Assembly (NCBI RefSeq): GCF_035593985.1
Contig: NZ_CP141587.1
Coordinates: forward strand, 2,044,001-2,108,000
Reading direction: 5' to 3'
Length of the DNA: 64,000 nucleotides
Origin: Sphingomonas sp. LY29
GTDB taxonomy: Bacteria; Pseudomonadota; Alphaproteobacteria; Sphingomonadales; Sphingomonadaceae
The position numbers and the translations under genes were made by a program. The notes under the pieces were generated by a model that worked only from the letters and a program-made list of their open reading frames with translations, was not told where the DNA came from and made no database searches. Position 1 is the first letter of the stretch; the number at the start of each line of letters is the position of its first letter. This document shows, piece after piece, positions 7,365 to 15,660 of the stretch.

Positions 7365-7577
7365 TTAGTCGGTGATGTTGTCGTCGGCGCGGTGACGCGG
7401 GGCGGCGGTGTTGGCCTCTTCTCGCGGCGCGTCGCGATCGGCCATCGTGTCGAGCATCCGGTCAGCCTCGTCGAGTTGCGCGGTTTGCGCTTCCGTCGGT
7501 GCCTCGACCTTTTCGCCGCGATCGCACGCGGCGAGCGCGAGTGCCATCAGGGGCAGGATCAGTCGGCGATTGGGCAT
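7365..7577 (-). CDS. Small lipoprotein, unknown function
   Basis: This 70-residue protein has a signal peptide ending in a lipobox (LALAAC, Cys at about 18) and then a short hydrophilic, Ala/Glu/Asp-rich mature part. It should be a lipid-anchored envelope protein; I do not recognise the family. It lies downstream of a second small lipoprotein on the same strand, but a strong terminator separates them. There is no clear ribosome binding site before the ATG at 7577, and a TATAAG box 6 bases upstream could give a leaderless transcript. The coding evidence is the coherent signal peptide and lipobox. Confidence 0.62.
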   Translation of the reverse strand: MPNRRLILPLMALALAACDRGEKVEAPTEAQTAQLDEADRMLDTMADRDAPREEANTAAPRHRADDNITD

Positions 7578-7592
7578 GCGAGACTTATAAAC

Positions 7593-7625
7593 AAAAAAGG
7601 GCCGCCCGCGCTAGGCGGACGGCCC
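7593..7625 (-). terminator. Rho-independent terminator (minus strand)
   Basis: Read on the minus strand, the stem GGGCCGtCCGC / GCGGgCGGCCC with loop CTAG is followed by TTTTTT. It lies just past the stop of the lipoprotein gene ending at 7659. Confidence 0.85.
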
Positions 7626-7658
7626 CGACCGCGTCCTGACGGACGCAATCGTCGATGA

Positions 7659-7919
7659 TTACATCGAGTTGTCGACGGCTTCCGCGCCATTCTCGAGCGC
7701 TTCACCGGTGTTCGCAACCGCATTGCCAGTGGCGTCGGCGGCGTTCTCAACGGTGTTGCCGGCATCGTCCAGCGCGTTGTCGACGGCGCTTTCGGCCGCC
7801 GCAGCGTCGTTCTCGACGGCGTTTTCGACAGTGGTGTTTTCGATGGCGTTCTCGGTCTGGGTTTCGCACGCGGCCAGGCCAAGCGCGAGGACCGCAACGG
7901 TCAGTGCAACCTTCTTCAT
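7659..7919 (-). CDS. Small repeat-containing lipoprotein
   Basis: This 86-residue lipoprotein has a signal peptide MKKVALTVAVLALGLAAC with lipobox Cys at 18. The mature part is built almost entirely from short Asn/Glu/Ala repeats of the kind NAIENT, VENAVEN, VDNALDDAGN, VENAADATGN, which should form one long acidic amphipathic helix. Such repeat lipoproteins are common in sphingomonads as hypothetical envelope proteins; the role is unknown. AAGGAATGGAA lies before the ATG. The terminator at 7593-7625 ends its transcript. It is divergent from the methionine-cycle regulator at 8124. Confidence 0.72.
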   Translation of the reverse strand: MKKVALTVAVLALGLAACETQTENAIENTTVENAVENDAAAAESAVDNALDDAGNTVENAADATGNAVANTGEALENGAEAVDNSM

Positions 7920-8087
7920 GATCGTTCCATTCCTTGCTTTTAAAGGGCGGCCTCCTCGCGAAGGACCGTCCCAGCTTGGCCCGCCGCCGAGGCATCGGGC
8001 CAGCGCGCCGAAATATAGACGCGGGTGCCGTCACGCAATCGTCATTTGCGACGAATCGAATTTTGGCATTTCAATGGCAGTGGTTGA

Positions 8088-8115
8088 TTGACCGATATAA
8101 AGATATGTTTATATC
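8088..8115 (+). promoter_or_regulatory. Promoter with embedded 22-bp palindromic operator of the methionine operon
   Basis: TTGACC (8088-8093) and TATATC (8110-8115) are spaced by 16 bases. The bases from 8094 to 8115 form a perfect inverted repeat, GATATAAA and TTTATATC around GATATG, which fills the spacer and the -10 box. A third related half-site (CCTTATCC) continues to 8120. Binding here would block RNA polymerase directly. The architecture suits an ArsR-family dimer and the SahR-type motif of proteobacterial methionine genes as I remember it. Confidence 0.72.
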
Positions 8116-8123
8116 CTTATCCG

Positions 8124-9092
8124 GTGTCTGACGAACTCTCTCTAGCCGTATTTTTCCAGGCGCTGGCCGATACCAGCCGTCTGCGGATCATCGCGTTGCT
8201 GCGAGCGATGGAGCTGTCGGTCGGGGAGTTGGCGCAGGTGCTGGCCCAGAGCCAGCCGCGCGTCTCGCGCCACGTTCGCATCCTTTCCGAGGCGGGGCTG
8301 GTCGATCGCCGCAAGGAAGGAAGCTGGGTCTTCCTGCAACTTGCCGATGCGGCGCGCACCGCGCCCCTGTTTGATGCAATCGATCGCTGGTCTGACGAGC
8401 GCGCCGCCGCGCTGTTCGCGGCCGATGCCGCCCGGTTGGAGGCCGTCCGCGCCGATCGCGCCGAAGCCGCCCGCCGCTATTTCGAAGCGCGCGCCTCGGC
8501 GTGGGACAGCATTCGCTCGCTTCATGTCGCCGACAGCGAAGTCGAACAGGCGATCGCCGACTTGCTGACCGATGAGCCGATCGGCGCCTTGCTCGACATC
8601 GGGACGGGCACGGGCCGGATGCTCGAATTGTTCGCGCCGTCCGCCGACAGCGCGATCGGGATCGATCGATCGTCGGAGATGCTGCGCCTGGCGCGCGTGA
8701 AGCTGGAGGAGGCGCAAATTGCGCGGGCCAGCCTTCGCCAAGGCGACATGTATGCCTTGCCGCTGGCCGACGGCAGCGCCGACAGCGTGATCCTTCACCA
8801 GGTCCTTCATTTCGCGCAGCAGCCCGCGGCGGCGATCGCCGAGGCGGCGCGCGTGATGGCGCCGGGAGCGCGTCTGCTGGTCGTCGACTTCGCGCCGCAT
8901 GAGCGCGAGGATCTTCGCGAGCGGGACGCGCACCTTCGGCTTGGTTTTGCCGACGATGCCATGCGCGGCTGGTTCGCGGCGGCGGGGCTGAAACTGGACC
9001 GAATTGAACGATTGGAAGGCGGCGAATTGTCAGTGATTCTTTGGCGTGGTCGCCGTCCGGGCGTGCGTCGGCGCGAAAAGGTGGCGGCATGA
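8124..9092 (+). CDS. ArsR-family regulator fused to SAM-methyltransferase-like domain (SahR-like)
   Basis: This 322-residue two-domain protein has an N-terminal winged helix of ArsR type (about 1-90, recognition helix SQPRVSRHVRIL near 43-54). A class I methyltransferase fold follows (about 125-305), with the SAM/SAH-binding motif LLDIGTGTGRML near 157-168. It heads an operon with metF and metH, overlapping metF by ATGA. The likely role is a repressor of the methionine cycle that senses S-adenosylhomocysteine or SAM with its methyltransferase-like domain, as described for SahR. The GTG at 8124 is chosen because family homology begins there. It has no ribosome binding site and sits about where transcription should begin, so a leaderless message is likely. 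The TTG at 8088 is the -35 box. An active methyltransferase cannot be excluded. Confidence 0.85.
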   Translation: MSDELSLAVFFQALADTSRLRIIALLRAMELSVGELAQVLAQSQPRVSRHVRILSEAGLVDRRKEGSWVFLQLADAARTAPLFDAIDRWSDERAAALFAADAARLEAVRADRAEAARRYFEARASAWDSIRSLHVADSEVEQAIADLLTDEPIGALLDIGTGTGRMLELFAPSADSAIGIDRSSEMLRLARVKLEEAQIARASLRQGDMYALPLADGSADSVILHQVLHFAQQPAAAIAEAARVMAPGARLLVVDFAPHEREDLRERDAHLRLGFADDAMRGWFAAAGLKLDRIERLEGGELSVILWRGRRPGVRRREKVAA

Positions 9093-9991
9093 ACCGCGAG
9101 GCTCGCCAGGCGCTAGCCGACCATGCCCCGCTGTTCGCCGCGGCGCGCGGCGACATCGCCGTCAGCTTCGAATTCTTCCCGCCGAAGTCGGACGCGATGA
9201 ACGAAACGCTGTGGCGCTCGATCGAGACGCTGGCGCCTCTCAAGCCGCGCTTCGTCTCGGTCACCTATGGCGCTGGCGGCTCGACCCGTGAGCGCACCCA
9301 CGCGACCGTCGAGCGGCTGGTCCGCGAAACGGACCTGGCGCCCGCCGCGCACCTGACCTGTGTCGGTGCAAGCCGCGGCGAGATCGACGACATCGCCCGC
9401 GCCTATTGGGATTCGGGCGTTCGACACATCGTCGCGCTTCGCGGCGATCCGAGCGAACCCGGGCAGGCCTATGTCCCGCATGAGCAGGGCTACTCGAACG
9501 CCGCCGAGCTGGTCGCGGGTCTCAAGAAGATCGGGCCGTTCGAGATTTCGGTCGCTGCCTATCCCGAGGTTCACCCCGATTCGGAATGTCCGGACAGCGA
9601 CCTCGACAATCTGTTGCGCAAGATCGACGCGGGCGCCGATCGCGCGATCACGCAATTTTTCTTTGCCGCAGAGAATTTCTTCCGCTTCCGCGACCGCGTC
9701 GCCGCGCGCGGCGTGGATATCGAGATCGTCCCGGGCATCCTGCCGATCAGCAACGTCGCGCAGACGCGCAAATTCGCCGGACAGTGCGGCGCCGAGATCC
9801 CGGCGTGGATGGACCATATTTTCGAAGGCCTCGACGATCTCCCCGCCGCGCGCGCGCTGGTCGCCGCGACGATCGCGGGCGAATTGTGCGGCCAGCTTTA
9901 TGCCGGAGGCGTTCGCGATTTCCATTTCTACACGTTGAACCGGGCAGAATTGGCCTACGCCATCTGTCACATGCTGGGGGTAAGGGCATGA
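9089..9991 (+). CDS. metF: 5,10-methylenetetrahydrofolate reductase
   Basis: This 300-residue FAD enzyme reduces methylene-THF to 5-methyl-THF, the methyl donor used by MetH encoded directly downstream. The N-terminal motif SFEFFPPKS, the substrate-loop region HIVALRGDP and ITQFFF near residue 188 are MetF hallmarks, and the length suits the bacterial single-domain form. The start ATG at 9089 overlaps the stop of the regulator gene (ATGA), and its own stop overlaps the metH start in the same way, implying translational coupling along the operon. Confidence 0.97.
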   Translation: MNREARQALADHAPLFAAARGDIAVSFEFFPPKSDAMNETLWRSIETLAPLKPRFVSVTYGAGGSTRERTHATVERLVRETDLAPAAHLTCVGASRGEIDDIARAYWDSGVRHIVALRGDPSEPGQAYVPHEQGYSNAAELVAGLKKIGPFEISVAAYPEVHPDSECPDSDLDNLLRKIDAGADRAITQFFFAAENFFRFRDRVAARGVDIEIVPGILPISNVAQTRKFAGQCGAEIPAWMDHIFEGLDDLPAARALVAATIAGELCGQLYAGGVRDFHFYTLNRAELAYAICHMLGVRA

Positions 9992-11030
9992 GTGCCGCCG
10001 ATACGCTGAGAGCCGAGGCGGCCAAGCGCGTGCTCGTCAAGGATGGTGCCTATGGCACGATGATCCAGGCCGAACGGCTGGACGAGCAGGATTTTCGCGG
10101 CGGTCGTTCCTTCACCCACGACCAGAAGGGCAACAACGATCTCCTCAACCTGACGCAGCCGCAGATCGTGGCGGCCATCGCCTCGCGATTCGTCGATGCG
10201 GGCGCTGATATTCTCGCCACCAACACGTTTAACGCCAATCGCATCAGCCAGGCCGATTACGGGGCCGAGGCGCTGGTCGCCGACATCAACCGCTCGGCGG
10301 CCAAGCTGACCCGCGAAGTCGCCGACAAGGCCAGCGCGGTCGACGGGCGCAAGCGTTGGGTTGCGGGCGCGCTTGGGCCCACCAACAAGACGCTGTCGCT
10401 ATCACCCGACGTCAACGATCCCGGCTATCGCGAAGTCGATTACGCCACCGTCCGCGCCGTCTATCGCGAACAGATCGATGCGCTGGTGGAAGGTGGGGTC
10501 GACTTCATCCTGATCGAAACGGTCTTCGACACGCTCAACTGCAAGGCCGCGATTTCTGCTACGCTCGATGCCGAGGCCGACCTTGGCCGGCCGTTGCCGA
10601 TCATGATTTCGATGACGCTGACCGATCTTAGCGGTCGCAACCTGTCGGGTCATACGGTCGAGGCCTTCTGGGCCAGCGTCCGCCATGCGCGGCCGGTCAC
10701 GATCGGCCTCAATTGCTCGTTCGGCGCGGCGCAGCTTCGGCCGCACCTCGCTTCCCTTTCCGGCCAGGCGGACACGCTGATCATGGCCTATCCGAATGCC
10801 GGTTTGCCCAACGACCTTGGCTGCTACGATGAGGCCGCGGAGGAAACCGCGGCACAGGTGTCGCAGTGGTTGGAGAGCGGGCTGGTGAACATTGTCGGCG
10901 GATGCTGCGGGACCACTCCCGCGCATATCGCCGCCATCGCCGGGGCGACGCGCGATTGCACGCCGCGCGCCGTCCCGGCGTCACCGACCCGCACCGTTCT
11001 TGCGGGCCTCGAACCGATGATCCTCGCCGC

Positions 11031-11034
<4 letters not shown>
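9988..11034 (+). CDS. metH: Methionine synthase, homocysteine-binding subunit (MetH N-terminal half)
   Basis: This 348-residue protein corresponds to the homocysteine/zinc domain of cobalamin-dependent methionine synthase. The zinc ligands are the Cys in GLNCSFGAA and the Cys pair in GGCCGTTP near the C-terminus. The start region DGAYGTMIQ is typical. The other MetH domains are encoded by the next gene, whose start overlaps this stop by ATGA. The two-polypeptide organisation is the known split MetH of many alphaproteobacteria. The split falls at the domain border and both halves have intact ends, so it is not a frameshifted pseudogene. Confidence 0.95.
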
Positions 11035-13643
<2,609 letters not shown>

Positions 13644-13671
13644 CCGGGTGGCGCGGGGTAGCGCGGCGGCG

Positions 13672-15660
13672 ATGATCGCACGGCTCCTCCTGCTTTGCGC
13701 CATGCTGATGGCGACGCCCGCGCTCGCGCAGGTCGCGCCGCGTCAGAATGCGATCGTGCCCGAACTGGTGGTCGAGCATGCCGCGCGGCCCGGCGGCGAG
13801 GTCGAGCTTGCCATCCTGATGCGCACCAGCCCTGGCTGGCACGGCTATTGGTCCAATCCCGGCGACGCCGGCCTGCCCATGAGCATCGAGTGGCAGCTTC
13901 CGCCGGGCGCGAGCGTCGGGCCGCTGCGCTATCCCGTGCCGGGCAAACTGCTCGTCGCCGACATCGTCAATCATGTCTTCGAGCGCGACTATGCGATCCT
14001 CACGCGGCTGCGGCTGCCCGCGGGCGTCAGCGGTTTCGTGCCGATCCGGGCGACCGCGACATGGCTGGCTTGCACCGACCAAGTTTGCGTGCCGGAGAAG
14101 GGCGAGTTTTCCGCGACTGTGCCGATCGGACCGGCGGGGGCGTCGGACGCTCGTTTCGACGGGTGGCGCCGGGCACTGCCACGGCCTCTATCGAGTCCGG
14201 CGCGTTTCCAGATCGACGGCGATCGCCTGCGCATCGCAATTCCCTTGCCCGCCAGCGTCGAGTTGGACCAGCCGATCTTCTTCCCCTCCGAAGATGGGCC
14301 AATTGATTATCCCGCGCCGCAAATCTTTCGGCGGGACGGCGACACGCTGATCGCCGACCTCAAGCGGCGGCGCGGCGAGCCCGGACGGCTTGGCGGCGTC
14401 CTGGCGCTGGGGGATGGGCGAGGGCTGGAGATCGACGCGGTACCGGGGGCGGTGTCGACGGACGGCAAATTGCTTGGGTCGGTCGAGGCGGGAGCGGTCG
14501 TGCTCGCCATCCTCGGCGCGTTGGTCGGGGGCATGCTCCTCAACCTGATGCCGTGTGTTTTCCCGATCCTGGCGCTGAAGGCGCTGCACCTCGCCAAGGC
14601 GGGCGGGGACGAACGCGCCTCGCGCCGCGATGCGCTCGGCTATGCGCTCGGCGCGGTGCTCGGCACGGCGGCATTGGGCGTCGCACTGCTTGCGATCCGG
14701 GCGGGCGGAAGTTCGGCGGGGTGGGCGTTCCAGCTTCAGGACCCGCGTACCATCGTCCTGCTCCTGCTGCTCGCGACCGCAATTACGCTCAACCTGCTGC
14801 GGCTGTTCGAACTGCCAGCGGTGGGGACCGAGGCGCGCCCGACCGGCAGCATTGGCACCGGCGCTTTGGCGGCATTCGTCGCAACGCCGTGCGCGGGGCC
14901 GTTCCTTGGTGCGGCACTCGGCACCGCGCTTCTTCTTCCGGCGTGGGGCTCGCTTGCCGTGTTCGCCGCGCTCGGGCTGGGCATCGCGCTCCCTTTCGTT
15001 GCGGTCGCCTTCATCCCCGCGCTTCGCCGCCGCTTGCCCAAGCCCGGTCCATGGATGGTTCGACTGCAGCGCTTCCTTGCCATTCCGATGGCTGCGACCG
15101 CTGTCGGATGCCTGTGGCTGTTATGGCGACAGGCCGGGACTCAGGGACTGCTGATCGGGCTCGCGGGCGTCGCGATTCTCATCCTGTTGCTGGCACTCGT
15201 CGGTCGTCGGCAGCGCGGCGGCAAGACGGCGATGTGGGCACTTCCGGCGGCCGCGCTTGTTGCCGTCGCCGGTGCGGTGGCCGTTCCCGCCGCCGACATG
15301 ACCACCGCCCGTATCCCCTTGGGCGCGGAGAAGTGGAGCGAAGCCGCGGTCGCTCGGACATTGGCGAGCGGCAAACCCGCCTTCGTCTATTTCACCGCCG
15401 ACTGGTGCCTCAGCTGCAAGGCGAACGAGGCGGGCGCGATCGAGCGCGAGTCGACGCGTGACGCCTTTCGCGAAGCGGGCGTGAAGGTGCTCGCCGGCGA
15501 CTGGACCAACGGCGATCCCGCGATCACGCGCTTCCTCGAAACGCGCGGCCGCGCGGGCGTTCCGCTTTACCTTTGGTACGATCCGGGCGCCGAGCCTGAG
15601 GAGCTTCCCCAGATCCTGACTCCGGCGATGCTCAGCGAGCGGGCGTCGCGCCGGCGCTAG
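13672..15660 (+). CDS. DsbD/ScsB-like thiol:disulfide interchange protein
   Basis: This 662-residue inner-membrane protein should move reducing power from the cytoplasm to periplasmic thiols. A signal peptide (about 1-20) is followed by a periplasmic DsbD-alpha/DsbC-like domain (about 25-255). An eight-helix DsbD beta core follows, with its redox cysteines in NLMPCVFP and ATPCAGPF, then a C-terminal thioredoxin-like domain with WCLSC (about C579 and C582). The layout suits the ScsB/DsbD group used for copper tolerance or cytochrome maturation. The start at 13672 is set by the signal peptide; no good ribosome binding site is seen. It lies 28 bp after metH and overlaps the convergent amidohydrolase gene by 29 bp. 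Confidence 0.9.
   Translation: MIARLLLLCAMLMATPALAQVAPRQNAIVPELVVEHAARPGGEVELAILMRTSPGWHGYWSNPGDAGLPMSIEWQLPPGASVGPLRYPVPGKLLVADIVNHVFERDYAILTRLRLPAGVSGFVPIRATATWLACTDQVCVPEKGEFSATVPIGPAGASDARFDGWRRALPRPLSSPARFQIDGDRLRIAIPLPASVELDQPIFFPSEDGPIDYPAPQIFRRDGDTLIADLKRRRGEPGRLGGVLALGDGRGLEIDAVPGAVSTDGKLLGSVEAGAVVLAILGALVGGMLLNLMPCVFPILALKALHLAKAGGDERASRRDALGYALGAVLGTAALGVALLAIRAGGSSAGWAFQLQDPRTIVLLLLLATAITLNLLRLFELPAVGTEARPTGSIGTGALAAFVATPCAGPFLGAALGTALLLPAWGSLAVFAALGLGIALPFVAVAFIPALRRRLPKPGPWMVRLQRFLAIPMAATAVGCLWLLWRQAGTQGLLIGLAGVAILILLLALVGRRQRGGKTAMWALPAAALVAVAGAVAVPAADMTTARIPLGAEKWSEAAVARTLASGKPAFVYFTADWCLSCKANEAGAIERESTRDAFREAGVKVLAGDWTNGDPAITRFLETRGRAGVPLYLWYDPGAEPEELPQILTPAMLSERASRRR

Follow-up and report, generated by a model that had tools for sequence, protein, structure and literature searches.

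A predicted SahR operator at the core promoter of sahR in the Sphingomonadaceae points to a probably leaderless repressor message

The beginning of the regulator gene sahR raises the question of whether its message has any leader at all. In the window, which is the whole 64-kb stretch of DNA that was analysed (positions 2,044,001–2,108,000 of a 2.46-Mb one-contig genome), sahR lies on the plus strand at 8124–9092, with a GTG start at 8124–8126 and a stop at 9090–9092, and encodes a protein of 322 amino acids. The initial annotation had placed the start at this GTG without a ribosome binding site and had predicted a leaderless mRNA, and no Shine-Dalgarno core was indeed found before 8124 in the window. 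A small divergent lipoprotein-like gene is present on the minus strand at 7659–7919. It encodes 86 amino acids (MKKVALTVAVLALGLAAC...), among which Ala, Asn and Glu abound and NAVEN/NTVEN-like units recur. As this gene runs away from 7919, the segment 7920–8123 is divergent intergenic and should carry the sahR promoter.

Within this segment, a −35 box (TTGACC, 8088–8093) was predicted on the plus strand from the sequence, a consensus scan and family conservation. It is followed directly by a predicted SahR operator, GATATAAAGATATGTTTATATC, at 8094–8115 on the same strand, which fills the promoter spacer and the −10 region and which was recognised from the sequence and its conservation in the family. 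The −10 element, predicted within 8110–8117 (plus strand), can be read as TATATC (8110–8115, spacer of 16), as in the TTGACC-N16-TATATC promoter first proposed and recovered here at the same positions, or as TATCCT (8112–8117, spacer of 18). A consensus scan of 7700–8300 for one promoter type only returned TTGACC-18-TATCCT as the sole passing promoter (1 found against 0.2 expected). The operator had been described as a perfect 22-bp palindrome, which overstates it a little: the two 8-bp arms mirror each other exactly, but the pair at positions 9/14 (G8102/G8107) is mismatched, giving 10 of 11 pairs over the 22 bp. What had been regarded as a third half-site is, by comparison with the other operator sites of the genome, the centre of the full operator. 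The pattern GATATAAA-N0..12-TTTATATC has a single occurrence in the 64 kb and was found in 0 of 100 dinucleotide-preserving shuffles.

The operator ends at 8115, leaving a gap of 8 nt before the GTG at 8124. Transcription is predicted to start within 8122–8124 on the plus strand, 7 nt behind either −10 element. The earlier estimate of about 8122 is correct in lying 7 nt behind TATATC; however, position 8122 holds a C, purines being found nearby at 8123 and 8124, and the promoter passing the scan gives, with TATCCT plus 7 nt, 8124 itself. Being purines, 8123 or 8124 would be the likeliest start, and the predicted 5' UTR in the window is 0–2 nt with either −10 element. No Rfam family, riboswitches for S-adenosylhomocysteine (SAH) or SAM included, reached its gathering score within 7500–14000.

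The fusion of an ArsR-type HTH to a SAM-fold, also noted initially, was confirmed in the one protein by the ArsR HTH domain PF01022 (residues 17–61, 42.4 bits against a cut-off of 22) and the class I methyltransferase domain PF08241 (residues 157–252, well above its cut-off), with a further match to the NCBIfam ArsR/SmtB regulator NF033788 (residues 8–76, 82.9 bits against a cut-off of 55). A DxGTG[TS]G motif, which we take to be the SAM-binding glycine loop, is present in 177/177 SahR proteins of the GTDB family Sphingomonadaceae (hereafter the family). Among the 60 chains of solved structures listed, the ArsR-type and methyltransferase matches cover one domain each, with the exception of the methyltransferase 6c5b_A, a weak match (E 3.6e-5) that aligns across residues 18–300.

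As had been stated, the gene heads metF and metH, both directly downstream on the plus strand. The methylenetetrahydrofolate reductase gene metF (9089–9991) shares an ATGA overlap with sahR and is followed by the homocysteine-binding part of metH (9988–11034) and by the remaining part (11031–13643; listed as a frame of 10866–13643, with a likely ATG at 11031 overlapping the previous stop). Methionine synthase is encoded here as a split metH, in two overlapping frames joined by an ATGA at 11031–11034 (window positions 9988–13643). The names metF, metH, ahcY and metK are those we presume from recognition of their sequences. The operator motif, with no more than two mismatches, is found at three places in the genome, namely before sahR-metF-metH, before ahcY and before metK. 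It should also be noted that metK of this genome is preceded by a pair of SahR operators that overlap and are offset by 8 bp (L007:3914–3943).

An ArsR-family domain, predicted operators before the sahR, metF, metH, ahcY and metK units and a palindromic operator of about 20 bp (here 22 bp) were thus all found. The domains, the metF-metH operon and the operators before ahcY and metK agree with the published SahR core regulon, bearing out the SahR-like identity first suggested. As described by Leyn et al. (2014; PMC4239095), this regulon comprises sahR, ahcY, metH, metF and metK with a 20-bp palindrome, and was reported for 7/7 Sphingomonadales. Since the SahR regulon is in print there, neither the regulator nor its operator is new; what is new is the prediction of a leaderless message.

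SahR bound at 8094–8115 would cover the spacer and the −10 element and block RNA polymerase from sahR-metF-metH, and the matching operators would extend its control to ahcY and metK. Accumulating SAH would bind the methyltransferase-like domain and take SahR off the DNA, upon which the methionine- and SAM-regenerating genes would be made. The steps of binding, release and ligand are proposed after the SahR literature cited in PMC8877191 and PMC4239095. In Ensifer, autoregulation of sahR is supported by a sahR mutant in which sahR promoter activity is reported to be raised (PMC8877191). A regulator sensing SAM rather than SAH, in a SamR-like mode, would use the same operator and leaderless message, and the methyltransferase domain could bind either ligand; the Xanthomonadales SamR is moreover a distant SahR homolog (PMC4239095). 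The SAH hydrolase gene ahcY, however, has an operator here, and SamR regulons are described in PMC4239095 as being without SAM-cycle genes other than metK. Sensing of SAM is therefore regarded as distinctly unlikely. Transcription would begin at the first base of the start codon or no more than about 5 nt away, making the sahR message leaderless, and a SahR that is autoregulated at its core promoter, released by SAH and read from a leaderless message is considered probable.

To follow this layout in the family, 186 sahR loci with 177 distinct upstream regions were collected, 106 loci from a search of 119 genomes (30 + 76 regions, a split match of G056 being left out) and 80 named loci (the best 80 of 118). 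An operator was called where at least 14 of 22 bases matched in the 110 nt that precede codon 12. By this measure, the palindrome is conserved at homologous loci, with an operator in 168/177 family regions; shuffled regions reached 14 bases in 3/177. A −35-like box, TT[GT][AC][CAT], lies just 5' of the operator in 87/98 loci of the first set, and the position of the operator at the core promoter, as originally proposed, is likewise conserved. The start codon lies 4–14 nt behind the operator in 165/168 loci (median 9, quartiles 7 and 10) and 7–11 nt behind it in 150/168; one locus, L204, was recounted by hand from a TTG (+20) to an in-frame GTG (+8), by which 164 became 165 of 168. A Shine-Dalgarno core (GGAG, GAGG or AGGA) was found in 0/165 short-spaced loci and in 2/168 overall, both of these being wide-spaced. 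The start codons of the 165 short-spaced loci are ATG in 154, GTG in 10 and TTG in 1. With the −10 element taken as the operator end and the start 7 nt on, the predicted 5' UTR is 0–5 nt in 155/168 loci, and with a lenient promoter fit (TT at the front of the −35 and A in the second place of the −10) it is 0–5 nt in 148/166. Under a uniform rule (operator of at least 15 of 22 bases within 180 nt, no hand recount), 181 family proteins gave 166 short-spaced, 6 long-spaced and 9 without an operator. The leaderless prediction, although a computed one, has thus survived the comparative test.

The letters between operator and start codon are far less conserved than the operator itself, mean identity between genomes being 30% over the first 7 nt of the gap, 83% over the operator and 26% from −40 to −20 of the operator. 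A distance of exactly 8 nt from operator to start is shared by the window, the four relatives nearest to it in identity (L202–L205) and the same-genus L044, the gap letters differing among them. Across the family, the sahR start is 5–14 codons ahead of codon 12. L052 (from G051) has an N-terminal extension of 24 codons, its ATG still lying 8 nt behind the operator. The conservation of spacing would be more than inertia, since the gap letters have drifted and the distance has not, and the start codon appears to follow the promoter, which is what a leaderless message calls for.

These comparisons bear on two other accounts of the locus. Translation could begin further upstream, at TTG 8088 or beyond, placing the operator in coding sequence of a leadered message, and the frame in the window is open to TTG 8088. 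In 86/168 family loci, nevertheless, an in-frame stop separates the −35 from the start, and all three operator-to-start phases are found (66/58/44), which makes an upstream translation start extremely improbable and agrees with the expectation of no conserved coding region upstream of 8124. Alternatively, SahR may regulate its own gene from an ordinary leader, transcription starting 5' of 8088 at an unrecognised promoter, with SahR acting as a roadblock and translation proceeding in a non-Shine-Dalgarno manner. Such an arrangement gives no reason for the fixed spacing of 4–14 nt; the scan of 7700–8300, which covered one promoter type, yields no second promoter, and the DNA 5' of the −35 is unconserved in the family, with 26% mean identity and an information content near zero in the family alignment. 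In its favour, a second, leadered start is reported for 59 of 171 leaderless starts of S. meliloti (PMC3616915) and for about half of the leaderless units of Zymomonas (PMC7566282). An upstream start for sahR with a leader is considered to be unlikely.

A few family loci depart from the short-spaced layout. Three of the 168 are wide-spaced at 25–47 nt (L024, L060 and L063), and among five extra family loci one (L282) has a spacing of 25 nt. An operator within 110 nt is absent from 9/177 regions. Six of these (L012, L017, L022, L054, L058 and L059) have neither an operator nor a same-strand metF immediately behind them and may be paralogs, perhaps of other function; L054 comes from genome G076, which has a second copy, L060. 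L034 and L041, from one genus whose genomes measure about 2.1 Mb, still have metF downstream and carry their operator some 165 nt ahead of the start. The ninth case is L052, the locus with the N-terminal extension.

Other genes and other families served as controls. Family ahcY genes (30 loci examined) have the operator 40–108 nt upstream and a Shine-Dalgarno core in 27/28, and family metK genes have an operator in 16/30 loci at a median of 36 nt, with a Shine-Dalgarno core in 10/16. Four metK loci (L160, L169, L171 and L173) start 7–9 nt behind the SahR operator. These were not counted as leaderless, as a TTGCC box further upstream suggests an operator close to the transcription start or past it. 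Among the remaining families of the order (20 of 43 other-family matches examined), sahR is short-spaced in 1/18 operator-bearing loci with a Shine-Dalgarno core in 5/18, and in other families of the class (87 of 139 examined) it is short-spaced in 13/81 operator-bearing loci, with a median of 37 nt and a Shine-Dalgarno core in 31/81; the spacing counts leave out two loci in the order and two in the class for which the rule gave no start. The short-spaced class loci outside the family include L188, L316, L302, L329, L318, L306 and L348. The uniform rule gave short, long and operator-less counts of 1/17/2 of 20 in the order and 13/68/6 of 87 in the class. From their sequences, the ahcY, metK and other-family sahR controls are predicted to be mostly leadered.

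A FastTree phylogeny was made of 191 SahR proteins, comprising 84 from the family (80 random plus named rows, exceptions included), 20 from the order and 87 from the class. On this tree, two label changes are needed to account for the family rows and the short/long state shows 16 changes in total, suggesting that the layout marks the family, was lost a few times and recurs elsewhere. Fisher values of 4e-20 and 1e-43 ignore relatedness and serve only to describe the contrast. Nearly all sampled family members have the layout, and in the related families that were sampled it is uncommon. Two further searches lent the leaderless reading no support: a pyrimidine-purine (Y-R) start signature was the same in sahR, ahcY, metK and leadered sahR and gave no discrimination, and the genome-wide pattern TTGAC-N16..19-TANNNT-N5..9-ATG matched 2 times, with 1 match in the reversed control, thus no excess. 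This pattern cannot match sahR of the window because it demands an ATG.

The GTG start of the window counts against the leaderless reading, since every mapped leaderless start of S. meliloti, 171 in all, is reported as AUG (PMC3616915). In the acuR gene of Rhodobacter sphaeroides, changing ATG to GTG cut leaderless expression strongly, reducing but not abolishing it (PMC3017554). As a leaderless GTG is poorly translated for acuR, SahR output from the window should be low. A leaderless SahR would in general probably be weakly translated, resulting in a low repressor dosage, and metF could be started internally, helped by the ATGA overlap, which is present in 114/166 family loci. A strict Shine-Dalgarno core precedes metF in 77/166 family loci and the window has only a loose AAGG; the picture of a strong metF start is weakened by this. 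Leaderless messages have been described for related bacteria, with 119 of 2,675 start-site/gene pairs being leaderless in Zymomonas mobilis (PMC7566282).

It seems somewhat more probable than otherwise that the Sphingomonadaceae, in the GTDB sense, took up a leaderless SahR operon early and kept it, with the −35, operator, −10 and start codon fused in about 40 bp, the bound repressor covering the DNA to just before the first codon, its dosage set by weak leaderless translation and metF and metH started separately, a similar geometry having arisen separately in several other alphaproteobacterial families (13/81). The same regulator and operator, predicted to be leaderless in one family and leadered in most sampled neighbours, would offer a natural contrast in which one can ask why repressors use leaderless messages and whether these are selected for low dosage. 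For sphingomonads, the geometry would also settle which codon starts sahR and give a simple rule for locating its promoter.

No report of a leaderless sahR was found in the open-licence literature searched, supplementary start-site tables lying outside that scope, nor is one given in the parts of PMC3017554, PMC3160421, PMC3616915 and PMC7566282 drawn on here. The SahR regulon of the Proteobacteria (PMC4239095) is alike in its ArsR-family repressor, its palindrome of about 20 bp and its core targets sahR, metF, metH, ahcY and metK; it is unlike the present case in that leaderless transcripts and operator-to-start spacing are not discussed in the portions of its account used here. Autoregulated leaderless repressor operons are already known from AcuR, and the acuR-acuI-dddL operon of R. 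sphaeroides (PMC3017554) is the closest precedent, with the repressor gene first and an inverted-repeat operator overlapping the promoter. Its acuR has no Shine-Dalgarno site and a 5' RACE start exactly at the AUG, with the same predicted in relatives from other bacteria; it is followed by genes led by ribosome sites, and translation of the regulator amounts to about 7.5% of that measured for the next gene. AcuR differs in being a TetR-family protein that responds to acrylate and has a mapped start, whereas SahR is an ArsR-methyltransferase fusion of the SAM cycle for which the start is inferred. Repressors are also made from leaderless messages, as predicted for sahR, by lambda cI and the tetR of Tn1721 (cited in PMC3017554). 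Those are phage and transposon genes, whereas sahR is a chromosomal gene for a metabolic regulator, and its layout is conserved across the family.
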